A stretch of DNA of 64,000 bases from Haloarcula sp. CBA1129 (GCF_008729015.1 NZ_RKSM01000001.1:1798001-1862000); one strand, 5' to 3'; counted from the first letter of the stretch, positions 17,097-47,963 are shown. Notes: a model not told the origin generated them from the letters alone. Translations and numbers: made by a program.

Positions 17097-17106
17097 AAAT
17101 TATACG
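17097..17106 (+). promoter_or_regulatory. TATA-like box before the flippase gene
   Basis: AAATTATACG lies 23-32 nt upstream of ATG 17129. The spacing fits a leaderless haloarchaeal transcript and supports that ATG as start over the upstream extension of the frame. Confidence 0.5.
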
Positions 17107-17128
17107 TCGGCAAAGGGTCGTTTCATGC

Positions 17129-20011: not shown

Positions 20012-21161
20012 GTACCTAGCGTAACTTTTGAAGATAACTGCCGAGATGATTGTCGATCCAAGAGGCCGCGAAACTCAGCTGAGCTGTGAGCTTCTCAAAG
20101 AGTTCGGTGAGGAGAGCGCGGTATTCTGCCGCGTTCTCCACAATCAACGGTGACGCTTCCCATTTCAGACTCTTCCAGACCTGCTCGATTGGGTTGAGAT
20201 CCGGTGAGCCAACGGGGAGAAACACGAGGTCAATCCCGAGTTGATGGGCTCGCTTGCGTGTATACTCGCACACGTGTGAAGAGAAGTTATCCAAAACGAG
20301 CAGAATCCGAGCCAGCGGATTCTGCTCGCGGATCCCCTCGAGACACTCGCAAATTCGCTCTTTCTCCTGAGTGGTTGGAAACTGAAGTACACTCTCACCA
20401 GAGAGTGCATAGAACCCGACCGCTGGTTCGTCTAACTTCACCAGCGGTCGGGTGATGTGAGGGTCGTCGACGGTGTAGAGTCGCTGTGAGTTGTCCCACG
20501 GTTGCGGATGCGATGTGTCGAGGAATCCAAGTACAGTTCCACCGTCCGTACGGATCTCTTCGTCAACGACCCAGCCTTCCTCGTCGTCTCCATCGCGTTT
20601 GTTGTGGGGCTCATCAGACCCCTCGTCGAACACGTCGCTGACGCGTTCGTCGAGGATCTCTTCGGCATTCTCTGGCCGTGATGGACGCTTAGTCCGTGGA
20701 ATTGCGTAGGAGAGGCCGAGCTTTTCGAGGAATGTAGTGAGGTGGGCTGGGTGAAATTCAACGTCGAACTCCTCGTTGATGAGGTGCTGTATCTCCTGTT
20801 TCTTCCAGGGTTGGCCCTCACGGAGCAGGTCCAGGAGGCGTTCTCGTTGGGCTGGGCCGAGCTTCGGGGGCCTGCCGCCCCCGAAGTTCGGCATCAAAAG
20901 TCCGAGACCACCCTTGTTCCACCGACGAGCCCAGCGTGTTCCTGTTGCGGAGGACCTGCCGACGTCGTCGGCAGCGTCCTCCAGGGTCGCCCCCTTGTAC
21001 AGCCGCTTAATGAAGATCAGCCGCTCAGTGAGTTTCTCATCCGTAGACTCTGTGAGGAGTCGATCGAGATCGTCCTCACTGAGGTGACGAACGATCTCTT
21101 TGCGGCGATCTCCAGACATACTCATACATCATATTCCACCTTCATAACTTCCACTAGCCAC
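20012..21161 (-). mobile_element. IS630-family insertion sequence, copy 1
   Basis: 1150 bp flanked by TA on both sides (20010-20011 and 21162-21163). Removing the element and one TA restores CTAG, the target preferred by IS630. Ends GTACCTAGCGTAACTTTT and, as reverse complement, GTGGCTAGTGGAAGTTAT form an imperfect inverted repeat. A second copy at 46812-47961 appears identical over its full length. Confidence 0.92.
20016..21125 (-). CDS. IS630-family transposase (copy 1)
   Basis: 369 residues, full length for the family. Two helix-turn-helix parts lie in the N-terminal third (GATLEDAADDVGRSSATGTRW and KQEIQHLINEEFDVEFHP). The DDE domain follows, with VDEEIRTDGGTVLGFLD, LLVLDNFSSHVCEY (second Asp) and LPVGSPDLNPIEQVWKSLK (DLNPIE box with the final Glu). 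All known catalytic signatures are intact and the copy at 46816 is identical, so recent activity is likely. Confidence 0.92.
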   Translation of the reverse strand: MSMSGDRRKEIVRHLSEDDLDRLLTESTDEKLTERLIFIKRLYKGATLEDAADDVGRSSATGTRWARRWNKGGLGLLMPNFGGGRPPKLGPAQRERLLDLLREGQPWKKQEIQHLINEEFDVEFHPAHLTTFLEKLGLSYAIPRTKRPSRPENAEEILDERVSDVFDEGSDEPHNKRDGDDEEGWVVDEEIRTDGGTVLGFLDTSHPQPWDNSQRLYTVDDPHITRPLVKLDEPAVGFYALSGESVLQFPTTQEKERICECLEGIREQNPLARILLVLDNFSSHVCEYTRKRAHQLGIDLVFLPVGSPDLNPIEQVWKSLKWEASPLIVENAAEYRALLTELFEKLTAQLSFAASWIDNHLGSYLQKLR

Positions 21162-21595
21162 TAGCGGTGGTGATGTTAGCTCATGCATTCGTGGTACGGC
21201 GACGGCTTGGAACAGGTGAGAACCACTCAGACTTCTCGTCGTTCGAGGAGGTAATTAACCAGATTGTGCGCGAGTCAGCAATCCAAGGGCTGATCGAGGA
21301 CAAAGGATGTGATAGAGATCGAGCGGAGGAGTTAGCGGAGTACATGCTCCAAAGCTACTCTCCGTGGTAAGCGCCAGACGCGACGAGAGCGCCTGCCGCT
21401 GAGCGGCAGCGCTCTCTAACCGACCTCATATCGAGAGTAAACATCCGATTTGAGCGGACAGTATTACACCAGTCGTCGGAGTCACGCCTCAATTGACCAG
21501 GCCATTGGTTTCGGCTGCCGCTGATTCCGACTGCTTCTACTTCGAGCCAGTATACTCACAGAGAATCTGGTCGATGATCACGACCTGTACCGTTG

Positions 21596-21621
21596 AACCT
21601 CGGAAGTACTGCTATGACACC
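21596..21621 (-). repeat. Right terminal inverted repeat of the IS701 element
   Basis: 26 bp, perfect reverse complement of 18702-18727. Confidence 0.9.
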
Positions 21622-21633
21622 TTCCACACACGT

Positions 21634-23205
21634 TTAGACGAGTATACTGTCATAGTCGCTGGTGATTATTTCAATCTTCTTGAGATACCTATCTACGTCG
21701 ACAGTTCGGGTGAACCCACCAATGTCGTCGTTGACTCTAATAAGATTCACATACGGGGATATCGCGTACCGCTTGAACGCTCGGGTATCGATGCCGATTT
21801 CCTCACAATAGCGTTTAATCTGGTCGCGAACCAGGTTCGAGAACGGCGTGTCCCGTAGCAGTGCCGCTTCGAATCCCCGACGGAACGACCCGTACCGGGC
21901 CGATGCGAACTCGAAGACGAACATGGCGAGGTCGATGATGCAGTTTCCAGAGATAGCACCGTACTCCCAGTCGACGACCGATGTGACACTTTCATCCTGT
22001 ACAAAGATGTTTTTCGGTGCGTAATCCCCATGAACCGCCGTCTTAGCCGTCGCTATTGGTTCTGCATCCGGGAGGTCGATGTCGAACGCAACTGTGTCGC
22101 GGTCCAGTTGCAGGCTCTCGTCTACGAATTTCGCTGACTGCGTCGCCGTGTGTAATTTAATCAACCACTCGATACCTGCAGTGAACAGTGGTGCGTCGTC
22201 GTCGTCAGAAATCTGGTGTGACATCGCCCCGCCGGTGGCCGGTTCCTGAACGACTGCGGTCCCCAACGCGGTGTCTTCGCTGGAAGTGAGCGGTACCGCT
22301 GAAAAGTCCGTTCTCAAATTGCGGATGTGCGAGACGATAGAGTGTTCCCGTATGTTGGACTGTGAGTAGCGCTCTCCGAAAGGATATTTACTCACAGACT
22401 GTACTACGCCGTCGTCGAGCGAGAGGGCGACTGCTCGGTGGTGTCCTTTTATTATCAAATCGTCCGTTATCCCCGTCGCTTTTGCCCCGTCTTTGTAACA
22501 CGCAAAGAGAACGGTGGGGAGAGTCTTTTCCAGGATTCTCTCACCGAGCGGAAGCCGGCGTATCTTTCTGTAGTTCGTGGTGAACTCCTGCTGGGTGAAA
22601 AACTCGAATACCGATCGCGTTTCCGATACAGGAAAGAGGTAGTTTGGTGAGTCCGAATCAGGAAACAGACAGTAGCAGACGACCGTCTCGAAATCACAGT
22701 CGGCCAGTTGTGCACGGATGTGAGAGACGGAATGTCGGACCGCGTTCTGAAACAACGATTCGAAATTAGTGAAGCGTTTTATTGGTTGTTTTGCTACGGA
22801 CCGAAGAACGCCGGCTGGTGTATCCGTGACAACGAGTAGGACACCACTCTCGGTGAGAGTCGCCGCCAAGTCGCTGGGACGGGTTGAAATTGTATGCCCC
22901 TCGGCAGCGTACGAGTAATCACAGATGATCGAATCAAACTCGCCTCGGAACGGCAGTGAGTCCGTGTTTCCAAGCAGCGTCTGAACCGAGGCTCCTTCGT
23001 GTTGAGCGGCAGTTCGAACACACTGTAGCCGGTCGCATGAGTTGTCTACCACATATACCTCGTCAGCAAGGTGACCTACGATAATGGGGTCGGAAACGCG
23101 TTGAGAGCCGACGCAGAGGGCTGTTCCGCGTATCTGGTTTCTAAAGAGGGTAAGCCAAGCGCTATCACGTACGCTAACAGAGCAACCCTTGATTGTATCG
23201 TTCAT
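21634..23205 (-). CDS. Methyltransferase-like and APH-type kinase fusion protein
   Basis: 523 residues. The first 200 residues look like a class I SAM-dependent methyltransferase fold: ALCVGSQRVSDPIIVGHLAD (a weak glycine-loop region), VYVVDNS (acidic strand end), LGNTDSLPF and FDSIICDYS. The C-terminal 280 residues are an aminoglycoside-phosphotransferase/choline-kinase-like domain with the catalytic loop HGDYAPKN (392-399) and the metal motif DWE (412-414, in place of DFG). Phosphotransferases of this fold also act on sugars and choline, so phosphorylation and methylation of a glycan component is plausible. It is divergent from the gene at 23390. The IS701 right repeat starts just 12 bp beyond its stop but does not cut it. 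Substrate unknown. Confidence 0.72.
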   Translation of the reverse strand: MNDTIKGCSVSVRDSAWLTLFRNQIRGTALCVGSQRVSDPIIVGHLADEVYVVDNSCDRLQCVRTAAQHEGASVQTLLGNTDSLPFRGEFDSIICDYSYAAEGHTISTRPSDLAATLTESGVLLVVTDTPAGVLRSVAKQPIKRFTNFESLFQNAVRHSVSHIRAQLADCDFETVVCYCLFPDSDSPNYLFPVSETRSVFEFFTQQEFTTNYRKIRRLPLGERILEKTLPTVLFACYKDGAKATGITDDLIIKGHHRAVALSLDDGVVQSVSKYPFGERYSQSNIREHSIVSHIRNLRTDFSAVPLTSSEDTALGTAVVQEPATGGAMSHQISDDDDAPLFTAGIEWLIKLHTATQSAKFVDESLQLDRDTVAFDIDLPDAEPIATAKTAVHGDYAPKNIFVQDESVTSVVDWEYGAISGNCIIDLAMFVFEFASARYGSFRRGFEAALLRDTPFSNLVRDQIKRYCEEIGIDTRAFKRYAISPYVNLIRVNDDIGGFTRTVDVDRYLKKIEIITSDYDSILV

Positions 23206-23360
23206 ATAGCGTCACCGGCAGTAGACTGTAGTATCCGTATTAAATCTCGCCCGCTGTAGTATTGGTGTATCGACATAGGGAGAGCGACTCGGCTGATGGT
23301 CAACATCATATATACCGTTCTAACTCATCAAAAGAGTTCTGCAAGCGGATGACGAAGGCT

Positions 23361-23370
23361 TATTAATATA
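23361..23370 (+). promoter_or_regulatory. TATA-like box before the CDP-glycerol-type transferase
   Basis: TATTAATATA ends 19 nt before ATG 23390 and starts 29 nt before it, consistent with a leaderless transcript. Confidence 0.5.
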
Positions 23371-23389
23371 TGCGTATGAGTGCTGATGG

Positions 23390-24562
23390 ATGAGAAATAT
23401 ACGGTCTTCTGTCGTCTTTGTTCTACAGTCCGTTCTCTTCCTTATCGCTAAGCTTGTACCCAGTGATCAAGACGTGTGGGTCTTCGGAGCGTGGCAGGGG
23501 GATAAGTTTCTGGATAACCCCAAATATCTGTTTTTGTTCGCCAACGAACAAGACGACGGGGTACGTCCGATTTGGGTGAGCAGAGACGAGGAAATCGTGC
23601 AGACACTACGCTCCGAAGGATACGAGTCATATCACGCCCACACACTCTCGGGAGCATACTACCAACTGATAGCCGGTAATTGCATTATTTGCTCGGACAT
23701 TGATGGTGATATTTCATGGTGGTGTACCGGCAACGCTACTGTGCATCAACTGTGGCATGGTAATCCGCTGAAAAAAATCGGCCGCGACCAGAGAGAGGAC
23801 AAGAGGAAGACGCATCTCGCTAAATTTCTGTCGGAGACGGTATTCGAGAAGGATATTCGACTGTACGTAACGGGCGAGACGTGGTTAGAGATATTCGATT
23901 CGGCATTCGATATCGACAGGGGCGATATGATCTGTACGGGATATCCGAGAAACGACGAGCTCTACGGCTCCATGGACGGTGCGGAAATCGGGTTAGATGC
24001 GGAGTTACTCGAAACGATCTCCACGACAGAGAAGATTATCGGATACGTTCCCACGTTTCGTAGTGATATACCGTCACCGATAAACAGCGAGTACTTGGAT
24101 TTGGAGGTACTAGACGAATTCTTGATAGAGAACGGCCTCACTCTCGTGCTCAAACCGCATCCGATTGTTGCCGAAGAAATACCGGAAACCTACGAAAACA
24201 TACTCGTGCTTCCGAGTGAGTTCGACGTGTATCCGATATTGAACGAACTGGACGCGCTGATAACGGACTACTCAAGTATCCTATTCGATTTCCTGCACAC
24301 GGATAACCCAGTTGTGTACTACAGTTTTGACAAGGACTGGTACATAGCGGACGAGAGGGGGTTCTACTTCGACTATGCCGGCTGTACCGCAGGCCCGCGC
24401 CCAAAAACGTTTGCCACCCTTCTCGACGGTATCAAATCGATATACAACGGAGAAGACAGCTATACCCGCGACAGAGAGGAACTCAGAAAGCGGTTCTTTG
24501 CGTTCGAAGACGGCAATTCATCGAAACGCGTGTACGATTGTATCAGACGTGGCCGAACGTAA
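23390..24562 (+). CDS. CDP-glycerol glycerophosphotransferase family protein (TagB/TagF-like)
   Basis: 390 residues. The family signatures are present: LWHGNPLKKIG (121-131, with the catalytic His), TGYPRND (183-189), KPHP (255-258) and ITDYSSILFD (291-300). In bacteria such enzymes transfer glycerol-phosphate or ribitol-phosphate from the CDP-alcohol onto a lipid-linked glycan. A hydrophobic N-terminus (SSVVFVLQSVLFLIAKLV) may associate it with the membrane. Together with the cytidylyltransferase-HAD fusion at 51955 it suggests a polyol-phosphate modification of the surface glycan. It is transcribed divergently from the methyltransferase-kinase gene. Exact alcohol donor unknown. Confidence 0.85.
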   Translation: MRNIRSSVVFVLQSVLFLIAKLVPSDQDVWVFGAWQGDKFLDNPKYLFLFANEQDDGVRPIWVSRDEEIVQTLRSEGYESYHAHTLSGAYYQLIAGNCIICSDIDGDISWWCTGNATVHQLWHGNPLKKIGRDQREDKRKTHLAKFLSETVFEKDIRLYVTGETWLEIFDSAFDIDRGDMICTGYPRNDELYGSMDGAEIGLDAELLETISTTEKIIGYVPTFRSDIPSPINSEYLDLEVLDEFLIENGLTLVLKPHPIVAEEIPETYENILVLPSEFDVYPILNELDALITDYSSILFDFLHTDNPVVYYSFDKDWYIADERGFYFDYAGCTAGPRPKTFATLLDGIKSIYNGEDSYTRDREELRKRFFAFEDGNSSKRVYDCIRRGRT

Positions 24563-24691
24563 TACCTAGGATCCACACCACTACTTCGACACCAGCAGTG
24601 GGGCTCATGTGTGGGCTTCACTGCCGATGCCACTGCAGTCTGCAGAGGGAGGCGGGCCTACACAACCATTAGTTATTTTGCGGCTAGCGAT

Positions 24692-25933
24692 ATGAACATA
24701 CACCAGGTCATGGACGATTCTACTGGGTCGGTTCTCATACTAACACAATATTTTCCACCGGAGACAGGGGCAGCATCAGCGAGATGGGCTGAGCTGTCAG
24801 ACCGCTGGTCGGAGGAGGTGCCGGTAACGGTTATCACATCTGCTCCGGATTATCCGAATGGCGAACTTGATCGTGAGTACGACAACGACTGGCTCCACCG
24901 CGAACAACACGGGAACATTGAGGTGCTCTACACAAAGACCGTTACCTCGTCGAGTGGCAACCTCCTTCGGCGGGGACTGAAGTTCGTCTGGTTCATGGTG
25001 ATGTCCGCCATCGTCGGACTCCGATATGTCTCGCCTTCGGTCGTTATCGCGACATCACCCCAACCGCTCACCGGGCTGTCCGCTTGGCTCATCGCGCGGA
25101 CAAAGGGCGCACGGTTCGTTTTCGAGGTGCGCGATTTGTGGCCCGAGTCTATCCTCGCTGTCAGCGATTTTGATTCCAGATTGGTTATTCGCTCTTTAGA
25201 GCGAACCGTCACGTTCCTGTATCAGCGCTCTGACGTGCTCGTTGTGGTTTCAGAAGGCTTCGTCGAACCGATACTGGAACGCGGTGTCGACCGATCGAAG
25301 ATAACATTTCACCCGAACGGCATCGAGATCGACCGGTACAGAACCGACGGCGAAACCCTCCCGGGTACCGAACCAGACGGCGACGTGTTCACCATTTCGT
25401 ACGTCGGAACCATCGGTCGGTCCCACGGATTGTCAGTCGTGCTGGATGCCGCCGCAGAACTGGAAGACGTACGGTTCGTGCTGGTCGGTGATGGAGCGGA
25501 GCGGGAACGCCTCAAAGCGCGGGCCGAAGACCTCGACAACGTCGTGTTCACTGGCCAGCGGCCGAAAGAGGAAGTCCCGAGTATACTAGCGGCGTCGGAC
25601 GCCGCTCTCGTCCACTTGAAACCGAGAGCGGTGTTCGAGACGGTCATCCCGTCGAAACTGCTGGAAGCGATGGCTGCCGAACTGCCGGTGATTCTCGGGG
25701 TGCGCGGCGAAGCGGAACGAATTCTCCGGGACGCCGGCGCGGGCGTCGTTATGGAGCCCGGCAACCGGACACAGCTGGTCGAAGCGGCCGAGCGGTTGCG
25801 GGACAACCCCCAAGAGCGGGCGACGTTCGGCCAAGCAGGCCGCGAATTCGTCGTCGAGCAGTTCAGCTGGGAGAACATCAGTGCCGCGTATATGGAGACG
25901 ATTCTGCCAAGTTCGGGGCCCGCTCAAAGCTAA
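24692..25933 (+). CDS. GT4-family glycosyltransferase (WbuB-like)
   Basis: 413 residues from ATG 24692; ATG 24710 is an alternative. The N-terminal ILTQYFPPETGAASARW and WSEEVPVTVITSAPDYPNG and the internal FEVRDLWPESI are typical of WbuB-type transferases. The C-terminal nucleotide-sugar half has ISYVGTIGRSHGL, FVLVGDGAERERLK and the ExxxxxE region (FETVIPSKLLEAMAAELPV). WbuB-like enzymes often transfer N-acetylated amino sugars such as FucNAc. The gene begins a co-directional run up to 35.1 kb and is followed by wecB and wecC, so the transfer of ManNAcA or a related sugar is plausible. Confidence 0.88.
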   Translation: MNIHQVMDDSTGSVLILTQYFPPETGAASARWAELSDRWSEEVPVTVITSAPDYPNGELDREYDNDWLHREQHGNIEVLYTKTVTSSSGNLLRRGLKFVWFMVMSAIVGLRYVSPSVVIATSPQPLTGLSAWLIARTKGARFVFEVRDLWPESILAVSDFDSRLVIRSLERTVTFLYQRSDVLVVVSEGFVEPILERGVDRSKITFHPNGIEIDRYRTDGETLPGTEPDGDVFTISYVGTIGRSHGLSVVLDAAAELEDVRFVLVGDGAERERLKARAEDLDNVVFTGQRPKEEVPSILAASDAALVHLKPRAVFETVIPSKLLEAMAAELPVILGVRGEAERILRDAGAGVVMEPGNRTQLVEAAERLRDNPQERATFGQAGREFVVEQFSWENISAAYMETILPSSGPAQS

Positions 25934-26002
25934 CGAGTGGCGTGTGACGAACAGGAGAATTTAAGTTTGGCCGCAGGATTCTGGGATATAACACCCCAAT
26001 TG

Positions 26003-27094
26003 ATGCCTCCTATACTGTCCTTTGTTCTCGGCACCAGACCGGAGATAATCAAGATGTCGCCGGTCATACGAGCCTGTCAAGACCAGAACGTACCGTTCTC
26101 AATAATCCACACCGGACAGCACTACTCAGAGGAGCTTGATGCGGTGTTTTTCAAACAGTTGGACCTCCCGACTCCGGAACACAACCTGTCGGTCGGATCG
26201 GACTCCCACGGGAGACAGACCGGCGAGATGCTCGGTGCTATCGAGTCCGTCCTCGAGGCCGAGTCACCCGAGACGGTCCTAGTACAGGGCGACACGAACT
26301 CCGTCTTGGCCGGAGCGGTCGCGGCCTCGAAGATGGACGATATCGACGTTGGACACATCGAAGCAGGGCTCCGGAGCTTCGACCGCGATATGCCTGAGGA
26401 GATCAACCGTCGCGTTGCCGACCACACGTCCGACTACCTGTTTGCCCCGACGGAGACGGCACGGGAGCACCTCCGTTCGGAAGGGGTACCCGACGACCAA
26501 ATCACGATGACAGGGAACACCGTCGTCGATGCGGTCCAGCAGCACGTCGATATCGCTCACAAACGGAACGAGATTGACGACGACATCCGTACTGACGGTC
26601 AGTTCGCGCTACTGACGGCCCATCGAGCCGAAAACGTTGACGACCGGGCACGGTTCCAGTCACTGCTCAACGGCGTCGCGTCGGCCGCTCGCGAGCATTC
26701 GTTGTCCGTCGTCTACCCGATTCACCCGCGAGCGAGCAAGCGACTCAAAGAGTACGATATCTCTCTCCCGGCCGAAATCCGGCTGGTCGAGCCACAGGAC
26801 TTCCTCGACTTCCTGCTTCTCGAAGATGACGCGACGATAGTGTTCACTGACTCCGGTGGGGTGCAAGAGGAGAGCTGTATCCTAGAGACACCCTGTGTCA
26901 CACTCAGAGACAGCACCGAACGACCCGAAACCGTCGACGTCGGAGCCAACCGGGTTGTCGGTGTCTCGCCCAGCGACATCGTCTCCGGGGCGACGGAGAT
27001 GCTTGGTGTGAAACCGACGTGGGCGAACCCCTTCGGTGACGGCACGGCTGCCGACCAGATACTGGACACACTCGGATACGGGGAGGTATCGTAG
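26003..27094 (+). CDS. wecB: UDP-N-acetylglucosamine 2-epimerase (non-hydrolysing)
   Basis: 363 residues from ATG 26003, which places the diagnostic SFVLGTRPEIIKMSP at the usual distance from the N-terminus; the frame is open upstream to 25937 but the extra residues are unlike the family. Further signatures are HTGQHYSEELD, VLVQGDTNSV, GHIEAGLRSFDRDMPEEINR, TGNTVVDA, LLTAHRAENVD and TDSGGVQEE. It interconverts UDP-GlcNAc and UDP-ManNAc in the cytoplasm. The next gene (6 nt away) oxidises UDP-ManNAc, so the two make UDP-ManNAcA. Confidence 0.93.
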   Translation: MPPILSFVLGTRPEIIKMSPVIRACQDQNVPFSIIHTGQHYSEELDAVFFKQLDLPTPEHNLSVGSDSHGRQTGEMLGAIESVLEAESPETVLVQGDTNSVLAGAVAASKMDDIDVGHIEAGLRSFDRDMPEEINRRVADHTSDYLFAPTETAREHLRSEGVPDDQITMTGNTVVDAVQQHVDIAHKRNEIDDDIRTDGQFALLTAHRAENVDDRARFQSLLNGVASAAREHSLSVVYPIHPRASKRLKEYDISLPAEIRLVEPQDFLDFLLLEDDATIVFTDSGGVQEESCILETPCVTLRDSTERPETVDVGANRVVGVSPSDIVSGATEMLGVKPTWANPFGDGTAADQILDTLGYGEVS

Positions 27095-27100
27095 GCGACT

Positions 27101-32703: not shown

Positions 32704-32734
32704 TATATTACCGTCCGACGACAAACTGCCGGTG

Positions 32735-32941
32735 ATGACCGAGACAGTGTCAGTCCCCGACGACCTGTACGAACAGTGCCGCCGGAACATCTCAGGAACG
32801 GAGTTCGAATCGGTTGACGAGTATGTCCAGTTCGTCCTCTCGGTAGTGGGCGAACCGGCCTCGGAAAACGCTGCCGACTCCTCGGCCGACCGCGAGGTCG
32901 ACAAAGACCAACTAGAAGCGCTCGGCTATCTCGACCGATAA
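32735..32941 (+). CDS. Small protein with a helix-rich body and an LEALGYL tail
   Basis: 68 residues from ATG 32735 (GTG at 32732 is possible). The N-terminus TETVSVPDDLYEQCRRNISGTEFESVDEYVQFVL resembles ribbon-helix-helix or antitoxin-like small proteins. The end, DQLEALGYLDR, is like the extreme C-termini of the alkaline-phosphatase-superfamily proteins encoded in this locus (RRLEALGYK at 38443, ARLRELGYLR at 41003). It lies between the toroid gene (31 nt) and the bi-domain dehydrogenase (51 nt). A shared tail suggests interaction with the same partner, or an origin from such a gene. Function unknown. Confidence 0.7.
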   Translation: MTETVSVPDDLYEQCRRNISGTEFESVDEYVQFVLSVVGEPASENAADSSADREVDKDQLEALGYLDR

Positions 32942-32992
32942 GTTCAGGGGGCGACTTGCGCAACCGTTCTCCATGAGGTCGGACACGAGTCA

Positions 32993-35143
32993 ATGAAGCA
33001 AGTTATACAGGACTACGGGAGCGGTGAGTTACAAGTCGTCGAGGCGCCACGACCGAGCGCCAGCCCGACTGGTATCGTCGTCCAGACGCATCACTCCGTG
33101 GTCAGTGCTGGCACCGAGCGTTCGATGATAGAGTTCGCCAACAAGAACCTACTGCAGAAGGCACGGGAACGTCCGGATCTGGTCAAGCAGGTCGTAGACA
33201 AGGCGAAGACGGACGGTATCTTGGACGCGTACCAGTCTGCTACACACCGACTCAACCAACCGGTCCCACTGGGGTACAGCTGTTCGGGTGAAGTCGTCGC
33301 CGTCGGGGACGAGGTCACCGAGTTCTCCGTCGGTGACCGGGTTGCCTGTGGCGGGGCCGGCCACGCCTCACACGCCGAAGTCGTGGCTATTCCGCGGAAT
33401 CTGGCGGCACACATCCCGGACGGCGTCTCGACGAGAGACGCCTCCTTTATGACGCTCGGCGCTATCGCACTGCAGGGCGTGCGTCGTGCCGACCTCACAC
33501 CGGGGGAGAGGGTCGGGGTCATCGGCCTCGGCCTCGTCGGCAAGCTCGTCGTGCAGATACTGGACGCCTACGGCTTCCCGACGATCGGGATGGATATCGC
33601 ACACCGACAAGTCGAGGCTGCGGCCCCGCTCGGCCTCGACGCGGGCCTGACAATTGGTGCTGACGATGTCGCGGAGTCCGTCAACAACTTCACCGACGGT
33701 CACGGACTGGACGCGGTTGTTATCGCCGCCGGGACCGATAGCAACCAGCCGGTCGAACTTGCGGGGTCTCTCTGTCGAGATCAAGGGACCGTCTCGGTAA
33801 TCGGTAACGTCAGTATGGATCTCCCCCGTGACCCGTTCTTCGAGAAGGAACTCGACTTCGGCGTGTCCCGGTCGTACGGTCCCGGTCGGTACGATAGGAT
33901 GTACGAGGAACAGGGACTTGACTACCCGTTCGGTCACGTGAGGTGGACAGAGAACCGAAACATGTCAGAGTTCCTCCGGCTCTTAGCGGAGGAATCCGTT
34001 GATGTCGCGCCGTTAGTAACGCACGAGTTCCCGTTCGAGGACGCCTTGGCGGCCTATGACCTCATCTTCGACGACGAGAGTGACGAGGACGTGACGGGAG
34101 TGGTCCTCCAGTACGACTCCAAGCAGGAGCACAGCGACCGATTACAGTTCCGTCACTCCACACCACAGCCGCAGGACAGCGTCGGTGTCGGCCTCGTGGG
34201 CGGTGGGACGTTCGCTGAGGGAACGATTCTGCCAGCGCTCGAGGGGTTGGACGTATCACTGGTCGGCGTCGCGACATCGTCGGGGACGAGTTCGCGTCAC
34301 GTCGCCAAGAAGTTTGGTTTCGAGTACGCGACGACCGACTACACACAGGTTGTCTCGGACGACGACGTGGACCTCGTTGTCGTCGCGACCAGAAACAATC
34401 TCCACGCCGATATCGCCGTTGAGGCACTCGATCAGAACAAGGACGTCCACGTCGAGAAACCACTGGCGCTCAACAGAACAGAATTGCGAGCCGTCGCAGA
34501 CGCCGCTCGAGATTCGGCGGGCCGACTGATGGTCGGGTTTAATCGCCGGTTCTCACCGATGTCGACCAGAATCAGAGAAGAGCTCTCGAACCGGTCAACA
34601 CCGCTGATGGTGAATTACCGCGTGAGCGTCGACCGGCTGCCGTCCGACCACTGGGTCCAAGACCCCGAGGAAGGTGGTGGGCGAATCGTCGCGGAACTGT
34701 GTCACTTTGTTGATTACCTCCAGTTCATAACGGAGTCAGTCCCTGAACGACTTACCGCCACGCCGATTACTTCCGGGGGGGCACACAGCGGCGAAGACAA
34801 CATAGACGTGACGGTGTCGTTCGCCGACGGCTCGGTCGGAAACATCCTGTACACGACACTTGGCGACCCCTCATCGCCAAAAGAGTACGTAGAGATATTC
34901 GGTGAGCAGGAGACGCACACGATAACGAACTACAAGACCGGCAAGATTATTCCCCTGTCACAGGAAAAAGGCCACGAACAGCAGTTTGAGGCGTTTATAT
35001 CCTCAATTCGGGAGGGGGAACCGTCACCGATTCCGACCACCGAACTCGTCCGAAGCACGCTGATGACCTTTGCAATCCAGCGGTCTGTTCGCGAGAACCG
35101 GACGGTCACACTCTCAGAGATGGAGCTGTTCGAGACGGGGTAA
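32993..35143 (+). CDS. Bi-domain oxidoreductase: zinc-type dehydrogenase plus Gfo/Idh/MocA
   Basis: 716 residues. Residues 1-370 are a medium-chain alcohol-dehydrogenase-like domain (PLGYSCSGEVVAVGDEV, RVGVIGLGLVGKLVVQIL). From about 389 a Gfo/Idh/MocA domain begins (VGVGLVGGGTFAEGTILPAL), with DVHVEKPLALN (the EKP motif) and MVGFNRRFSPM. Such fusions occur with heparinase-like genes and glycosyltransferases in bacterial and archaeal polysaccharide loci and are thought to oxidise or reduce sugar intermediates. It ends the plus-strand operon, 29 nt before the convergent asnB-like gene. Substrate unknown. Confidence 0.88.
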   Translation: MKQVIQDYGSGELQVVEAPRPSASPTGIVVQTHHSVVSAGTERSMIEFANKNLLQKARERPDLVKQVVDKAKTDGILDAYQSATHRLNQPVPLGYSCSGEVVAVGDEVTEFSVGDRVACGGAGHASHAEVVAIPRNLAAHIPDGVSTRDASFMTLGAIALQGVRRADLTPGERVGVIGLGLVGKLVVQILDAYGFPTIGMDIAHRQVEAAAPLGLDAGLTIGADDVAESVNNFTDGHGLDAVVIAAGTDSNQPVELAGSLCRDQGTVSVIGNVSMDLPRDPFFEKELDFGVSRSYGPGRYDRMYEEQGLDYPFGHVRWTENRNMSEFLRLLAEESVDVAPLVTHEFPFEDALAAYDLIFDDESDEDVTGVVLQYDSKQEHSDRLQFRHSTPQPQDSVGVGLVGGGTFAEGTILPALEGLDVSLVGVATSSGTSSRHVAKKFGFEYATTDYTQVVSDDDVDLVVVATRNNLHADIAVEALDQNKDVHVEKPLALNRTELRAVADAARDSAGRLMVGFNRRFSPMSTRIREELSNRSTPLMVNYRVSVDRLPSDHWVQDPEEGGGRIVAELCHFVDYLQFITESVPERLTATPITSGGAHSGEDNIDVTVSFADGSVGNILYTTLGDPSSPKEYVEIFGEQETHTITNYKTGKIIPLSQEKGHEQQFEAFISSIREGEPSPIPTTELVRSTLMTFAIQRSVRENRTVTLSEMELFETG

Positions 35144-35172
35144 GAAATCATCCCGACACCGTGACCCTGTGT

Positions 35173-37023: not shown

Positions 37024-37125
37024 GTACTGAGTACTCGCTAGTCGATACTTATAACATATGCGGTGTTCCTTACCGGGTGAGGCAACGGTTGCAGCCGTCC
37101 AGCACGCGTCTGAGTCAACCGTACA

Positions 37126-37134
37126 GTATATATG
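37126..37134 (+). promoter_or_regulatory. TATA-like box before phosphatase-superfamily gene 2
   Basis: GTATATATG lies 23-31 nt upstream of ATG 37157 and supports that start over the longer open frame. Confidence 0.5.
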
Positions 37135-37156
37135 GAGCTACTGTTTGTGTTCAGAC

Positions 37157-38443: not shown

Positions 38444-38453
38444 CGCGTTCCAT

Positions 38454-39647: not shown

Positions 39648-39809
39648 CTGTGGCTGACCGTATACTTGTGCATTGATACTGGCATAGAAACAAGTTACGA
39701 GCTAGCTGCCAATGTATTGAGCGGATTTCAACCTGCCACTGTTGGAGTGACCGTCTCGGCGGGGGTGGTAAGTCGTAGACGTTATCCCACATTAGTGATA
39801 TCCGCACTT

Positions 39810-41003: not shown

Positions 41004-41046
41004 GCGTTCACAGTTGCTAGCTCCTATTTGAATTACTGCGAACCGG

Positions 41047-42888
41047 TCAGGAGACAGTTCTGGCTTGGTCCCGTTTGTGCGGCCGAACGACAAGATCGTA
41101 CCAGCCGACGTAGTTGACGATTTTCCAGAGTGCGAGGCCACGGTCACGATTGTTGTCGCAGTGGTCAGTGTAAATAGACCGGACTGCAGTAGCATCGACG
41201 TGTGGTGTCTGTCGTAGCATATCTGGAGTGAGCCAGCGCGTGAGTCCCTCGTATTCTGCTCTGAACCAGTGGTGAATAGGGAGATTGAACCCCTGACTCG
41301 TGCGCTGTAGGGTTCGCTCGGGCAATAGGTCGCTCACTGCGTTCCGAAGCAGCGGTTTGTACGTCCCGTCAAATCGCTGGTCAGTCGGCACCTGATGGAC
41401 GTACTCAACTAGTTCGTGGTCGAGGAATGGGGTGCGTGCTTCGAGCGAAGCCTGCATGGTAGCGAAGTCGACCTTGTGCAGTAGTTTGCTAGGGAGGAGA
41501 TAGGATAAGTCGAACGTTAGTTGTCGGTGGAGATACTCCGACTCGGCTGATTCAAGCGAGCGCTGTATCAGATCAGGAAGGTTACCCTGCCCCTCCGTAG
41601 CAAGATACTCGTCCGGTGGCCGCGAAAAATTCCCTGCCACCTCCGCGATAAGCTTTTCATCGCTTCCGAGCGATGATAGGTATCGGAAGTGGCGCGGTTT
41701 GATTGGTGAGTGCGTGGCGACTGGCTTGAGAGCCGTAAAGAGGCTCTCGGGTAGTTTCGCGGAGATACGCCGGTGTCGTTCGACCATCTCGTGGTACGGT
41801 GACCCACCGAACAGCTCGTCGGCTCCTTCGCCGCTCAACACGACTTTCACGTCCTCACGTGCTCGCTTGGAGAGCAACAGCGTCGGGAGGATAGCGGGGT
41901 CTGCCAGCGGTTCACTGTAAGCCGAGATTATGCGTGGAAGGATATCTACAGCGGACATGTCTACCGTTAACTCGGTATGGTCCGTTCCAAAATAGTCCGA
42001 AACGTACCTTGCTTCGGCGCTCTCGTCGTATTCTGCTTGTTTGAAGCCGACAGAAAACGTCCGAACGTCGTCCTTATGTTCCGTCATCAGTCCGACGATG
42101 GCCGAGGAGTCGAGACCGCCCGACAGAAACGCGCCTACTGGGACATCAGCCTGTAGTCTCTGTTCGACGGATTTCTCGAGCAGTGACCGCACCGTCCGGG
42201 AAGCGCCTGTCCGAGTAACAGTGGTCGCGGGCGGTGACCAGTACTGACGCTGTACACGACTGCCGTCGGATAAGAGGAGAGAGTTTGCTGGTGGCAGTTT
42301 CTCAATCCCCGAGATCAGCGTCTTCGGCCACGGTGAGAACCCCAAATTGAAGTAATCCGACAGCGCACTCTGATTGACCGTTGGTTCTACCCCTGCGCGG
42401 AGGAGTGGTTGCAGTTCGCTCGCCCACGCGAAACTGTCCTGATTCGTCGTCACGAAGAGCGGTTTGATACCGAGACGGTCACGGGCGAGAAAGAGGCACT
42501 CCTGCTGCTCGTCCCAAATCGCAAACGCAAACATTCCGTTTAAATAGATTGGTAGCTCCTCGCCGTACTCCTCCCAGAGATGGACGAGTACCTCGGTGTC
42601 GCTGTCAGAAGTGAACCTGTGTCCGGATGCTTCTAGTGTCTCACGCAACGACTGGTAGTTGTATATTTCCCCGTTGAACACCGCGACAACTGTCCCGTCC
42701 TCGTTGTACACCGGCTGTGCCCCGTTCGACAAGTCGATGATTGATAACCGTCGCATTCCCATCGCTATGCCGTGCTTCCCGTCGACGTGGTAGCCGTCGT
42801 CATCAGGACCGCGATGCGTGAGACAGTCAACCATCCTATCAATAGTTCCCGCTTCTATGTCTCCGTAGAGACCAGCAATACCACACAT
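41047..42888 (-). CDS. AsnB-type glutamine-dependent amidotransferase 2
   Basis: 613 residues with Cys2 (MCGIAGLYGD), GMRRLSIIDLSNGAQP, FNGEIYNYQSLRE, the loop LSGGLDSSAIVGLM and VVLSGEGADELFGGSPYH. It is complete and closer to classic AsnB than copy 1. As with copy 1, amidation of a uronic acid in the surface polysaccharide is the likely role. A broken duplicate of its first 50 codons and promoter lies 1.8 kb away at 44502-44693. A TATA box at 42916-42925 should drive it with a short leader. Confidence 0.9.
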   Translation of the reverse strand: MCGIAGLYGDIEAGTIDRMVDCLTHRGPDDDGYHVDGKHGIAMGMRRLSIIDLSNGAQPVYNEDGTVVAVFNGEIYNYQSLRETLEASGHRFTSDSDTEVLVHLWEEYGEELPIYLNGMFAFAIWDEQQECLFLARDRLGIKPLFVTTNQDSFAWASELQPLLRAGVEPTVNQSALSDYFNLGFSPWPKTLISGIEKLPPANSLLLSDGSRVQRQYWSPPATTVTRTGASRTVRSLLEKSVEQRLQADVPVGAFLSGGLDSSAIVGLMTEHKDDVRTFSVGFKQAEYDESAEARYVSDYFGTDHTELTVDMSAVDILPRIISAYSEPLADPAILPTLLLSKRAREDVKVVLSGEGADELFGGSPYHEMVERHRRISAKLPESLFTALKPVATHSPIKPRHFRYLSSLGSDEKLIAEVAGNFSRPPDEYLATEGQGNLPDLIQRSLESAESEYLHRQLTFDLSYLLPSKLLHKVDFATMQASLEARTPFLDHELVEYVHQVPTDQRFDGTYKPLLRNAVSDLLPERTLQRTSQGFNLPIHHWFRAEYEGLTRWLTPDMLRQTPHVDATAVRSIYTDHCDNNRDRGLALWKIVNYVGWYDLVVRPHKRDQARTVS

Positions 42889-42915
42889 AGATATTGATAC
42901 AGTATCGTTGGCCGG

Positions 42916-42925
42916 CTATATAATT
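42916..42925 (-). promoter_or_regulatory. TATA box of AsnB-type gene 2
   Basis: On the minus strand the sequence reads AATTATATAG, 28-37 nt before the start codon. The same box with conserved flanks is present before the asnB remnant at 44502-44657, so the promoter was duplicated with the gene. Confidence 0.55.
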
Positions 42926-43023
42926 CGCGATACAATAGTTATTCCGAGAAGTGCATCATGGAAAAATGTCGACATCCACTGATATTCGACTATACAACAC
43001 GGATTTTGAATCTGCGTCTAATA

Positions 43024-43400
43024 TGCTGTGTTGGATTACAATCTAATCGTCTGACACCGCGGGTTAGATTGATGAAGACCAGAGAACCTGTTTTTTGACT
43101 CCATAGACATCAATGTTTTCGACCTCATTGAGTAGTGTCGGCATCTAACTAAGTTGGGAACCTCGCGGACGAGCCCGCTACCGGGTGGTTATACCCTTGA
43201 CGCATGTCGTTCTTCACTGTTTTCAGCTCAAAGACGTCCACAGCTACTGTGAAGCGCCGAATTGACTGAAGCATACGGCCGAGATCTGTGACACGCTCGG
43301 CTCGGATTGGGACAATCTATCAGCGCTCACAACGATATACAAATCATTCGACAGCCTGACCATGAGATATGCGCTATTGATTACACCACACTGGTTGCAA
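43024..43400 (+). pseudogene. IS5-family transposase remnant (N-terminal part)
   Basis: The stretch starts with TGCTGTGTTGGAT, close to the terminal repeat of the MITE at 53662. Translation gives pieces of an IS5-type haloarchaeal transposase: DSIDINVFDLIE-stop-CRHLTK, then HVVLHCFQLKDVHSYCEAPN-stop-LK, then HTAEICDTLGSDWDNLSALTTIYKSFDSLTM. Stops and frame changes show decay. The rest of the transposase is lost next to the glycosyltransferase 3' end at 43437. This remnant fills the gap between asnB-type gene 2 and that gene. Confidence 0.65.
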
Positions 43401-43436
43401 TTTGCTTATTATCCCTCTTAACGGATATATATTCAC

Positions 43437-44477
43437 TCAGTCTGACTCAAGGACCTCTCGTAACAGTTCAACACTCTCTTCAGTCCAAAATTCATCTTCC
43501 GTCACCAACTCTCGACCACGATTCCCGAATGTACCCCTACGTTTCGGGTTTTCAATCAACTCTTTGAGGTATTTGATCCATTCCTCCTCAGTGCTCGCGT
43601 GGAACCCAGACTCCCCATGACGGACGATGTTTTTCAAGTATGAGACAGGTGTTACTACGACCGGAATCCCCAGTGCCATCATTTGTACGACCGATGTAAA
43701 TCCTCCCTTCGAATTCGCCCATTCAGTGTCAGAGAGGGGTCGAACCCCAATATTTATTTTTGATAGGTAATCAAGCTCCGAGTCTAGGCTCCACTCTCGG
43801 TATGTTACGTCGTTTCGATCTACAAGCGGGGTGACCGGTTTTTCACCCGCTGTAATAATGTCTAATGTCGCATCGTCATACTGATTCAGCACCACCTCCA
43901 GAGGGCCAGTTATCGTTGCGAGATACCGGAGATTCTGTGGGTTTCCAATCCATCCGATCCTCGGTGGTTCGCCATTAGCCTCTTTTCCATTCCAGTAATG
44001 ATCATATTTCTGTTTTGGTAGTGGAGTTGGAAGACAGTACACCTCATCCGAGTAATTACCGGCATATGTTTGAAGCTCGGGACTCCCAGCTATGACTGTG
44101 GACGCTGTTCGGATTAAATTATTAAAATCTTCTTTACGTTTCAGTGAAATAGACTCCCATACTGGGCCAGTGTATATTGCGTCATCAAAATCATACACTA
44201 TTCTTTTACTCAACTTCTCCAGAAGTGTTACGTACAAACGCGGCAGCGGAAGCCTGTGTATAAACACAACATCGTAGCGGGGTGCTCTACCGAGTAGATC
44301 TAATGCAAAATATGCTTTTTTGAGCCGATTAGACCTGAAACCAATTTGTCTAGTACCTTCAAGGGATACAACATCACAGCGGATGCCACTCTCTTCTAGA
44401 TGGGGAATCATATTTAGGACACGCAACCGGGTACTTGCTGATTCTCTAGTTCCAGGAACAGCAAATAGTACATTCAT
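43437..44477 (-). CDS. GT4-like glycosyltransferase
   Basis: 346 residues. N-terminal NVLFAVPGTRESASTRLRVL, YDFDDAIYTG near residue 95 and the donor-domain segments PPRIGWIGNPQNLRYLATI, IGVRPLSDTEWANSKGGFTS and MALGIPVVVTPVSYLKNIV are visible. The family transfers a sugar from a nucleotide donor. A paralogue with the same landmarks but broken by transposons lies at 46286-49939 on the other strand. The gene is AT-rich compared with its neighbours, which suggests separate acquisition. TATA-rich DNA precedes the start. Confidence 0.83.
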   Translation of the reverse strand: MNVLFAVPGTRESASTRLRVLNMIPHLEESGIRCDVVSLEGTRQIGFRSNRLKKAYFALDLLGRAPRYDVVFIHRLPLPRLYVTLLEKLSKRIVYDFDDAIYTGPVWESISLKRKEDFNNLIRTASTVIAGSPELQTYAGNYSDEVYCLPTPLPKQKYDHYWNGKEANGEPPRIGWIGNPQNLRYLATITGPLEVVLNQYDDATLDIITAGEKPVTPLVDRNDVTYREWSLDSELDYLSKINIGVRPLSDTEWANSKGGFTSVVQMMALGIPVVVTPVSYLKNIVRHGESGFHASTEEEWIKYLKELIENPKRRGTFGNRGRELVTEDEFWTEESVELLREVLESD

Positions 44478-44501
44478 AAATATATTATATTTTTCATATT
44501 A

Positions 44502-44657
44502 ATGGATTAGTAATAGTCGCCGCATCCCCATTGCTAGATTATACCCCGAATCGACGTGGTAGCTATCACTATCGAGGCCACGATATCTGAAACAATTCAC
44601 CACCCTATTGATAGTTCTTATCTCGATATTTCTGAAGACACCAGCCATACCACACAT
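44502..44657 (-). pseudogene. AsnB-type amidotransferase remnant (first 50 codons)
   Basis: The minus strand reads MCGMAGVFRNIEIRTINRVV, then YHVDSGYNLAMGMRRL, which parallels MCGIAGLYGDIEAGTIDRMV and YHVDGKHGIAMGMRRL of AsnB-type gene 2. The frame is kept but many residues differ, and the rest of the gene is missing. The upstream TATA region is conserved too. Confidence 0.78.
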
Positions 44658-44683
44658 ATCTACCGGAACAGTATCGCCGGTCG

Positions 44684-44693
44684 GTTATATAAT
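44684..44693 (-). promoter_or_regulatory. Orphan TATA box before the asnB remnant
   Basis: ATTATATAAC on the minus strand, at the same distance from the remnant's ATG as in intact AsnB-type gene 2. It may give a short transcript. Confidence 0.4.
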
Positions 44694-44759
44694 CCGCGGT
44701 ACAACTGTCTTCTATAGGGATGTCACCGGTAGACGGGATAGTAGAGCACCGACAGTTGG

Positions 44760-46067
44760 CTATACTACACGGAAATCGGACTCTTCGTTGAGTATTATAT
44801 AATGTGTAAACAAAACTATAAATAGTATCCGCCAGAACGACGGGTGACTAAATCGATTACTGACGAAGGATAACAACAGCGATGCACCGATGGCAGCGTA
44901 CACGAATAGGTAACCGATTTCGCCGCTCTGTCGCAGCCTATTATAGATATATGTGGAGATGAACCCAAGGGTCAAGCAACCGACAAGAATACCCATTATA
45001 CCAAAATCGAGATAAAAATCAGTTATGTACGTCGGGAATACACCAAAAGAGCCGTAGAACTCCTGCTCGAATCCCCGCTGCTCCCCCAGTAGCGATTTCA
45101 TAGGCGGAAAGAAACTGTACAGCCCATATGAAAGCTGAGTACCGTACGTGAAATCAGACACCCTGTTCGTGATAATCTGTATATTTCTAAACCCCGGCGC
45201 GATGTAAACATACAGCGTAGCCAACAATGAGTTATCAAACGGGACTCGAATGTTATTTGCTTCGAGCAATGCACTCCCAACTCCAAATCCGCTCCGAATC
45301 GAGCCAATAATTGAGAATATCAGTACTGTGAATCCGCCGAACGCCACCGCCTGTGACAGCCGAATTCTCTTCATCTGACTGTAGCAGACGACTAAGATGA
45401 GGAGGAAGAATAGTGGAGCCATTCTAGCCAACCGAAGTGAGAGGAACACGAAGCTAAGTACCGTTAGCAATAGATACAGCCGCCGTGGTTTGTCCAAAAA
45501 GAGGACAAACGAGATGATACCGACAGCAGTCACCGGATAGAGGAACAGATTATATATGACGGGTACGAACAGATTGTGTCTGTAGCTGTTCGAGTCCCGG
45601 AGAAAAGCGTTTATGCCACCGACGTTTTGAAACATGTAGGCAAAAACGACCCCCCCAATAGCCATGTAGACTCCGAGGACAACTATCGTGCGTTCTTCAC
45701 TCCACGGGACTCGGATCGAACTAGCTCGGCGAACGACACCAGTTACTCTGTTGGCGAAGTAACAGCCGACGAAGAACAAAAGCGCGCTTGCGTATATTAT
45801 GTAGTACGTCTGTAATGTAAGGTCCGGTTGTATCGAGGGGGCCATCAGATGGAGTTCGTACACCGCTAGCGCACCAAACCACGAGATGCCTAACAGTGAC
45901 ATCGGGGAGAAAATATCGTCATACACCCAGATAGAAACGAGCAGAGAGAGGACAGTCGCAGTGATAGCGACGAACAACGGAAAGCTAAACCAGTATATCA
46001 GAACGACACAGCAGATACCCAAGACAGAGCCGAAATTCAGCGCGTTCTTTTCTACATTTATCGACAT
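44760..46067 (-). CDS. Polytopic membrane protein, probable O-antigen-type polymerase (Wzy-like)
   Basis: 435 residues from ATG 46067. About 12 membrane segments with a larger loop before the last three (GTQLSYGLYSFFPPMKSLLGEQRGFEQEFYG) is the usual design of oligosaccharide repeat-unit polymerases. The frame is open to a GTG at 46187, but a TATA-like CTTATATACA at about 46158-46167 lies inside that extension, so the shorter form is favoured. It would join lipid-linked repeats outside the membrane after the flippase (17129). Wzy proteins have little conserved sequence, so the call depends on topology and context. AT-rich. Confidence 0.7.
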   Translation of the reverse strand: MSINVEKNALNFGSVLGICCVVLIYWFSFPLFVAITATVLSLLVSIWVYDDIFSPMSLLGISWFGALAVYELHLMAPSIQPDLTLQTYYIIYASALLFFVGCYFANRVTGVVRRASSIRVPWSEERTIVVLGVYMAIGGVVFAYMFQNVGGINAFLRDSNSYRHNLFVPVIYNLFLYPVTAVGIISFVLFLDKPRRLYLLLTVLSFVFLSLRLARMAPLFFLLILVVCYSQMKRIRLSQAVAFGGFTVLIFSIIGSIRSGFGVGSALLEANNIRVPFDNSLLATLYVYIAPGFRNIQIITNRVSDFTYGTQLSYGLYSFFPPMKSLLGEQRGFEQEFYGSFGVFPTYITDFYLDFGIMGILVGCLTLGFISTYIYNRLRQSGEIGYLFVYAAIGASLLLSFVSNRFSHPSFWRILFIVLFTHYIILNEESDFRVV

Positions 46068-46285
46068 ATATGCTGGATGTATAGCTTGGGAGATGTATCG
46101 GTCTGATCGCTGCTCTTCCACTTGCGCATTACGACGATACTCTAACTGGGAATCTATGTATATAAGAAATTTTGGTATCGAGAACACGACTGCTGATGGA
46201 TGCTACATCATCCTGTGCTGGTACCAGTGGGCGTTCAACGGTCCGGACGGGGATTCATTATTACAACCAGTGCACAGTGAATTTG

Positions 46286-46399
46286 GTGAACGCTATTTGT
46301 AGTCTCGGGCGACAAAAAAAGCCAGCATTCGCGTTCGGATGTTAAATATCGTCCCACATTTAGCGGAGAATTTGCACACATGTGAAGTCATCTCTATGG
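46286..46399 (+). pseudogene. GT4-like glycosyltransferase, N-terminal fragment
   Basis: After a frame slip at a run of seven A (about 46311-46317) the sequence reads ASIRVRMLNIVPHLAEN and CEVISMG, parallel to ASTRLRVLNMIPHLEES and CDVVSLEG of the glycosyltransferase at 43437. It ends where an IS5-type terminal sequence (CTGTGTTGAATCG) begins. The C-terminal part of the same gene lies at 49331-49939. Confidence 0.7.
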
Positions 46400-46546
46400 G
46401 CTGTGTTGAATCGCCATACTGTAGTAGATTTCACTGTTTCACGGCACGCTTGGTGTTGTATACGACACACATCAGAGCGATTTCTCGGAACTCACGGAAC
46501 CAGGAACGCGCTCGCACGGCGAATAGTGATTCGCAGGAGCTTTGGG
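46400..46546 (-). pseudogene. IS5-family transposase remnant (C-terminal end)
   Basis: The minus strand reads FAVRARSWFREFREIALM and CVVYNTKRAVKQ then stop, the usual C-terminus of haloarchaeal IS5-type transposases. The outer end carries CTGTGTTGAATC, as in the MITE at 53662. The inner end is cut at TA by the second IS630-type element. Confidence 0.7.
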
Positions 46547-46811
46547 TAGACTCAGTGTTATCGAAGTAATGTCGGGAGAGAAAGAGAGATCGTCCGTCAC
46601 CTCAGTGAGGACGATCTTGATCGCTTGCAAAAAGAGACAGACGACGCAAAGATCAGCAAGCGACTGACGTTCATCAAGCGGCTCTACAAAGGCGCGACGA
46701 TTGAGGGAGCCGCTGACGATGTCGGGATGTCTCAATCAACTGGCAGTCGCTGGGTTACCCGGTGGAATAAGGGAGGGATTGGCCTGCTCACTCCGAACTT
46801 CGGGGGCGGTA

Positions 46812-47961
46812 GTACCTAGCGTAACTTTTGAAGATAACTGCCGAGATGATTGTCGATCCAAGAGGCCGCGAAACTCAGCTGAGCTGTGAGCTTCTCAAAG
46901 AGTTCGGTGAGGAGAGCGCGGTATTCTGCCGCGTTCTCCACAATCAACGGTGACGCTTCCCATTTCAGACTCTTCCAGACCTGCTCGATTGGGTTGAGAT
47001 CCGGTGAGCCAACGGGGAGAAACACGAGGTCAATCCCGAGTTGATGGGCTCGCTTGCGTGTATACTCGCACACGTGTGAAGAGAAGTTATCCAAAACGAG
47101 CAGAATCCGAGCCAGCGGATTCTGCTCGCGGATCCCCTCGAGACACTCGCAAATTCGCTCTTTCTCCTGAGTGGTTGGAAACTGAAGTACACTCTCACCA
47201 GAGAGTGCATAGAACCCGACCGCTGGTTCGTCTAACTTCACCAGCGGTCGGGTGATGTGAGGGTCGTCGACGGTGTAGAGTCGCTGTGAGTTGTCCCACG
47301 GTTGCGGATGCGATGTGTCGAGGAATCCAAGTACAGTTCCACCGTCCGTACGGATCTCTTCGTCAACGACCCAGCCTTCCTCGTCGTCTCCATCGCGTTT
47401 GTTGTGGGGCTCATCAGACCCCTCGTCGAACACGTCGCTGACGCGTTCGTCGAGGATCTCTTCGGCATTCTCTGGCCGTGATGGACGCTTAGTCCGTGGA
47501 ATTGCGTAGGAGAGGCCGAGCTTTTCGAGGAATGTAGTGAGGTGGGCTGGGTGAAATTCAACGTCGAACTCCTCGTTGATGAGGTGCTGTATCTCCTGTT
47601 TCTTCCAGGGTTGGCCCTCACGGAGCAGGTCCAGGAGGCGTTCTCGTTGGGCTGGGCCGAGCTTCGGGGGCCTGCCGCCCCCGAAGTTCGGCATCAAAAG
47701 TCCGAGACCACCCTTGTTCCACCGACGAGCCCAGCGTGTTCCTGTTGCGGAGGACCTGCCGACGTCGTCGGCAGCGTCCTCCAGGGTCGCCCCCTTGTAC
47801 AGCCGCTTAATGAAGATCAGCCGCTCAGTGAGTTTCTCATCCGTAGACTCTGTGAGGAGTCGATCGAGATCGTCCTCACTGAGGTGACGAACGATCTCTT
47901 TGCGGCGATCTCCAGACATACTCATACATCATATTCCACCTTCATAACTTCCACTAGCCAC
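46812..47961 (-). mobile_element. IS630-family insertion sequence, copy 2
   Basis: 1150 bp, apparently identical to 20012-21161 and in the same orientation, flanked by TA (46810-46811 and 47962-47963). It sits inside the transposase gene of IS630-type element B. The start-to-start distance from copy 1 is exactly 26,800 bp. Confidence 0.92.
46816..47925 (-). CDS. IS630-family transposase (copy 2)
   Basis: 369 residues, identical to the protein at 20016-21125, with the same intact HTH and DDE landmarks (LLVLDNFSSHVCEY, LPVGSPDLNPIEQVWKSLK). It should be functional and able to act on both copies and possibly on the 199-bp right-end repeat beside it. Confidence 0.92.
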   Translation of the reverse strand: MSMSGDRRKEIVRHLSEDDLDRLLTESTDEKLTERLIFIKRLYKGATLEDAADDVGRSSATGTRWARRWNKGGLGLLMPNFGGGRPPKLGPAQRERLLDLLREGQPWKKQEIQHLINEEFDVEFHPAHLTTFLEKLGLSYAIPRTKRPSRPENAEEILDERVSDVFDEGSDEPHNKRDGDDEEGWVVDEEIRTDGGTVLGFLDTSHPQPWDNSQRLYTVDDPHITRPLVKLDEPAVGFYALSGESVLQFPTTQEKERICECLEGIREQNPLARILLVLDNFSSHVCEYTRKRAHQLGIDLVFLPVGSPDLNPIEQVWKSLKWEASPLIVENAAEYRALLTELFEKLTAQLSFAASWIDNHLGSYLQKLR

Positions 47962-47963
47962 TA

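Follow-up and report, generated by a model that had tools for sequence, protein, structure and literature searches.

Why two copies of one insertion sequence (IS) should stand on either side of a set of glycan genes, and whether they can move those genes, is the question raised by this locus of Haloarcula sp. CBA1129. In the stretch of 64,000 nucleotides that was analysed (the window), the copies lie at 20012-21161 (copy A) and 46812-47961 (copy B). The first-pass annotation of the window had described them as identical IS630 copies in direct orientation, and this was borne out, as they matched at 1150 of 1150 positions, had the same orientation and were 26,800 bp apart; their identity is far beyond chance. 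Both copies are bordered by the dinucleotide TA, and the shared identity reached exactly these 2 nt past each end, giving repeats of 1154 bp at 20010-21163 and 46810-47963 (both on the minus strand).

Each copy encodes a transposase on the minus strand (369 aa, 20016-21125 in copy A; identical, 46816-47925 in copy B). The transposase was assigned to the IS630 family by its match to NF033545 (transpos_IS630; 279.1 bits against a cut-off of 100), and the Pfam domains DDE_3, HTH_32 and HTH_23 were all found above their cut-offs. Apart from IS630, only a weak IS481 match was returned by the NCBIfam scan. The residues D203, D279 and E314, which are invariant in A1 and A2, form a putative DDE triad with a D-E spacing of 34 residues. 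A profile match to Sleeping Beauty was found in the PDB (E 0.003); the AlphaFold model was poor (pLDDT 57) and was not used for a fold search. The genome (4.05 Mb in five contigs) carries five full copies of the element, three of which are identical with 0 SNPs (A, B and one on the 529-kb contig C3), and the other two, both on contig C1, have 1 and 2 SNPs. The three full copies elsewhere in the genome, two on C1 and one on C3, had gone unmentioned in the first-pass annotation.

The flanks of copy A show it to be a simple insertion inside a resident IS701 element, in the parental configuration. An IS701-family (DDE_5) transposase was recognised by profile match at 18777-19976 on the plus strand, with its frame read from the sequence, and the 3′ part of this resident element holds the palindrome in which copy A lies. 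The left arm, CATCACCACC, is at 19998-20007, with TC between the arm and copy A, and the right arm, GGTGGTGATG, is at 21166-21175 (both on the plus strand). An intact version of this site elsewhere in the genome (C1:947908-948208) matches the joined flanks of copy A at 99.2% over 260 nt and reads CATCACCACC-GCGA-GGTGGTGATG (the reverse strand of the window reading), without a TA.

Copy B is likewise a simple insertion in the parental configuration, inside an older IS630 relative (about 70% identical) whose left part is at 46524-46809 and right part at 48163-49034 (plus strand). The 9-bp halves of its target palindrome, TTCGGGGGC at 46799-46807 and GCCCCCGAA at 48167-48175 (both on the plus strand), are matched by reading across a fragment of 199 nt (47964-48162, minus strand) that directly follows copy B. 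This fragment is the right end of another copy of the same IS and starts at IS position 956, which is the dyad centre (T) of a palindrome within the IS itself, CTGCCGACG-T-CGTCGGCAG (47756-47774 in copy B, 20956-20974 in copy A), the presumed site of self-insertion. As reconstructed from the sequence, a short-range deletion between two copies of this IS would best account for the right side of copy B. A second copy would have inserted itself at the internal palindrome, and a deletion between the overlapping direct repeats would then have left the 199-nt fragment. Neither the fragment nor the older IS630 relative around it appeared in the first-pass annotation.

Between the copies (21164-46809) are genes for a methyltransferase-kinase, a glycerophosphotransferase, GTs, wecB, wecC, a sulfatase/phosphodiesterase-like protein, a heparinase-like protein, an ADH-GFO/IDH fusion, two AsnB proteins and a repeat-unit polymerase. 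The fusion gene (32993-35143) joins a zinc alcohol dehydrogenase to a GFO/IDH/MocA oxidoreductase and is conserved next to heparinase-like and wecC genes in two genomes of other genera, G104 and G106. The earlier statement that almost all of the glycan genes lie between the copies holds roughly, but a polysaccharide flippase lies upstream of the pair (16841-18595, plus strand), and two nucleotidyltransferases (51928-53466 and 57883-58638) and an initiating sugar transferase (Bac_transf; 59854-61278, plus strand) lie downstream of it.

Some further features were observed in the window. A conjugation-like module of higher GC (0.62) at 175-13095 stands beside the lower-GC glycan island and includes a TrbL/VirB6-like gene (2417-3532), an AAA/TraG-like gene (4580-6874) and an ORF of 1274 aa (6867-10691). 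An RNA ligase-domain protein is encoded at 58868-59707, with a nucleotidyltransferase on one side and the initiating sugar transferase on the other, and a direct repeat of 222 nt (95% identical) occurs at 56641-56862 and 63779-64000.

Identical copies in direct orientation invite the reading that the pair is a composite transposon or recombination cassette, by which the 25.6-kb glycan block is moved, deleted or amplified. The distribution of the ADH-GFO fusion gene is in keeping with this, as 3 of 145 relatives had it and the other members of the genus that were searched did not. However, the outer flanks of a composite transposon would be the halves of one target site and the inner flanks would belong to the cargo, whereas each copy here has its own target halves on its two sides, and the uninterrupted target of copy A exists. 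Because both halves of one target flank each copy, neither copy has exchanged flanks with another copy, and, with the intact A site, the block cannot have entered through exchange at the two IS copies. Mismatched palindrome halves beside a copy would betray past recombination between IS copies; at A and B the halves match, so the glycan block was not exchanged.

The gene content also speaks against a cassette, since the functional cluster runs past the pair and its core has kin (heparinase-like, ADH-GFO fusion, wecC and GT) in the two other genera, where the approximately 37 kb examined around the core in G104 and in G106 revealed no IS630 relative. The related core also includes wecB in G104 and AsnB in both genomes, and in G104 the initiating transferase adjoins the wecB-wecC-heparinase-ADH/GFO core. 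The GC content showed no step at the IS borders of the glycan block. A cassette is therefore very unlikely, and the composite transposon was rejected on the flank halves and the empty-site evidence. The IS pair does not mark the boundary of the glycan cluster, and A and B landed separately, rather than as the ends of a composite transposon or as a linked cassette. The first-pass annotation had also suggested that homologous recombination between the copies could delete or release the block. Two identical direct repeats of 1.15 kb can recombine in principle, but no recombination between A and B is recorded, both palindrome halves having been kept at each copy. A route for mobility of the glycan block, as the proposed meaning of the pair, is doubtful.

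The landing sites themselves were found to have a common form. Each of the five copies in this genome is set in a palindrome, with arms of 10 bp at A and at the C3 copy, 11 bp at C1:2683684 and C1:1290810, and 9 bp at B. For the relatives, the element ends were set by terminal inverted repeats and a required bordering TA, blind to the flanks, which were scored afterwards. Perfect arms of at least 9 bp were found at 64% of 64 copies, compared with 0.12% of 2,536 random TAs (TA-only controls) and 1% when the left and right flanks of different copies were cross-paired, and at 61% when the copies were reduced to 51 distinct target sequences. With five copies more than in the TA-control set, 47 of 69 sites had such arms, against 78 of 21,286 any-position controls (0.37%); the binomial p of about 1e-97 overstates the certainty of this difference since the copies are related. 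The enrichment is approximately 180-fold over any position and 500-fold over TA sites.

Exact symmetry about the insertion point was seen at 39 of the 48 palindromic sites, and the palindromic targets had loops of 0-8 nt and arms of 8-15 bp. The arm sequences are unrelated between sites and the bases adjacent to the insertion are nearly uniform; the targets share a palindromic form and not a sequence, which is the pattern of structure-directed insertion. All five copies in another genome, G407, were in palindromes, and the same gene palindrome is occupied in G407 and by the C3 copy here, though the elements differ. Approximately 30% of the sites were without a clear palindrome, where rearranged flanks or wrongly set ends are possible. 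A divergent haloarchaeal clade with GAGTGGTC ends (41-49% identity) was also found in palindromes. As a control, none of 27 methanogen IS630 copies was in a palindrome, nor were the bacterial IS630 copies from Shinella and Deinococcus, and an IS630 of Planococcus gave one case of an AT-rich 8-bp palindrome.

Two sets of flanks among the relatives deserve separate mention. The copies L057 (G096:C1:227267) and L096 (G096:C1:2656146) have a common left flank, with a matching right half-palindrome in only one of them, a pattern that recombination or deletion at an IS copy may have left. At L183 (G034:C1:234259-237665) a longer, nested inverted repeat (CCGTTGTAC...GTACAACGG) encloses the target palindrome, and this repeat may be a miniature repeat element that recurs in several genomes.

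It could be argued that the palindromes are made by the insertion or its repair and were not present beforehand, because hairpin repair could in principle duplicate flanking DNA in inverted form. However, uninterrupted homologues in many genomes already have the palindrome, which leaves this scarcely credible.

Another reading is that the element behaves as a canonical IS630, inserting at TA with a 2-bp TA duplication, and that the palindromes are coincidental, a TA in a hairpin being merely accessible. Every copy is flanked by TA, and TA targets define the family (PMC2170065, PMC5481204), both of which would be expected. Joined flanks were compared with uninterrupted homologues; a duplicated TA target predicts an empty site 2 nt longer than the TA-less join. 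The net difference was 0 at copy A (99.2% identical site in the same genome), at the C1:1290810 target (97.7% in the same genome; 32 of 33 alignments), at a G407 site with a 100% identical homologue in the same genome, and at L104 (98.8%), L108 (94%), L116 (92%; 32 of 33), L126 (93.5%), L078, L013 and L127. A difference of +1, with loss of the central loop base, was found at the odd-loop sites L004, L087, L088, L090, L093, L103 and L179. The exceptions were L011, L041 and L069, where the empty sites differed by -2, -6 and -1 nt. The same steps applied to the methanogen IS630 control gave +2 in 19 of 20 alignments.

The branch with GAGTGGTC ends behaved similarly in G034, with zero difference at L181 (8 of 8) and L184 (17 of 17) and -1 at L182. 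Elements with these ends on Natronorubrum bangense plasmids (L327 and L328) and in the halophilic archaeon DL31 (L329) have GG...GA beside their ends, which may correspond to the TA of the main clade. The boundaries of shared identity in G407 include the TA, independently of the setting of ends by a required TA. A reading-frame test of the joined sites gave +0 at 7, +1 at 9 and +2 at 4, and is noisy in stop-poor, GC-rich DNA.

As the empty sites are without TA, the TA is part of the element (TA-IS-TA, 1154 bp) and no target is duplicated on insertion. Duplication of a TA target was rejected at the informative sites. Insertion at TA with TA duplication is not what the haloarchaeal clade displays, since the empty site was TA-less for every haloarchaeal copy whose homologue was near-identical or had multiple support, in contrast to the +2 of the methanogens. 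Together with the enrichment of palindromes over both any-position and TA sites, this renders the canonical reading highly improbable.

We consider it very probable that A and B arose by separate insertions of one IS630-family element, which belongs to a clade that targets the dyad centre of DNA palindromes without a TA target or duplication. When a hairpin or cruciform is extruded, the transposase would capture its unpaired tip, and both strands would undergo strand transfer at the loop centre, with a stagger of 0 or -1. Central strand transfer of this kind would account for the absence of duplication and for the fact that an odd loop usually loses its central base. Mos1 bends its target and flips the TA adenines out (PMC5481204), and the hairpin or cruciform tip could supply bases that are already bent and unpaired, replacing this bend-and-flip of the TA step in Tc1/mariner enzymes. 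Judging from the target sequences, the transposase most likely recognises the tip, that is, a structure rather than a linear dyad.

Alternatively, a symmetric dimer could bind a short symmetric sequence pattern without reading any structure, so that palindromes would be selected via their sequence. Many DDE enzymes favour short symmetric consensus targets (PMC5481204), and such binding would be of the same kind. However, the unrelated arms, the nearly uniform adjacent bases and the reach of the arms to 9-15 bp do not fit a short pattern, and we regard this explanation as unlikely, though it keeps an appreciable share of the probability.

If insertion at palindrome centres is the preferred explanation, the position of A and B can be related to where palindromes occur. 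The window has 24 unoccupied strong palindromes, most of them in transposase regions and 3 between the copies; in Markov-random sequence of equal length the number is 2-6. As resident transposase genes hold most of the strong palindromes of the region, it is in older IS elements that the element comes to sit, and A and B bracket the glycan genes because two of these older elements flank those genes.

A wider proposal, for which we see the chances as evenly balanced, is that a whole haloarchaeal branch of the Tc1/mariner/IS630 superfamily has swapped recognition of TA for that of DNA shape, inserting bluntly (0/-1 nt) at hairpin or cruciform tips, with the former TA duplication now part of the element. 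Its members may also mobilise small palindrome-seeking elements that make no duplication, like the SMR-A repeats of Haloquadratum, and their insertions would map natural cruciform sites in archaeal chromosomes. A large clade that obeys neither the TA rule nor the duplication rule of the superfamily and takes palindromes of any sequence would show how target choice can change naturally in these enzymes, could serve as a tool to detect cruciforms in vivo, and would explain the nested IS clusters of haloarchaea.

The new part of these observations is the targeting, namely insertion at the dyad centre of palindromes without a TA target or duplication. No paper on a palindromic-target rule for IS630 was found in the open-access literature, a scope that leaves out the original IS630 target-site studies. 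Hairpins also matter for target or end recognition in IS605/IS200 and in REP-targeting IS, whose enzymes are unrelated; IS605 carries its hairpins at its own termini, and the REP type is directed to particular repeat sequences.

The element resembles IS630/Tc1/mariner (ISY100, IS630, Mos1) in transposase homology, a DDE triad with 34-residue spacing, terminal inverted repeats, a length of approximately 1.15 kb and TA borders. Described members of this group integrate "strictly at TA" with a 2-bp stagger (PMC5481204; ISY100, PMC2170065), whereas the haloarchaeal elements have targets without TA, no 2-bp duplication and insertion at palindrome centres. Cut-and-paste movement with 5′ ends recessed by 2-3 nt is a further trait of the IS630 family. 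By sequence the element belongs to this family, yet it lacks the TA target and the duplication by which reviews define it.

SMR-A of Haloquadratum walsbyi (PMC3119063) is similar in being inserted without target duplication inside palindromes of other mobile elements, but it is approximately 110 bp long, has no transposase and has ITRs reported to be unlike known transposons (PMC3119063). As a hypothesis, the haloarchaeal IS630 clade is a candidate mobiliser of SMR-A; no element with matching ends was found in the Haloquadratum plasmids PL47 and PL100.

A further likeness is with IS1272/IS1182 (PMC5678879), which also use inverted repeats of varied sequence as the target, with no ordinary duplication; according to that 2017 paper, inverted repeats had not been recognised as targets until then (PMC5678879). 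The transposase of the haloarchaeal clade is of a different family according to the NCBIfam scan, and neither an IS1182-type transposase nor stem-loop replacement was found. IS1272 replaces the stem-loop, whereas the haloarchaeal IS630 clade keeps both arms and inserts in the loop.
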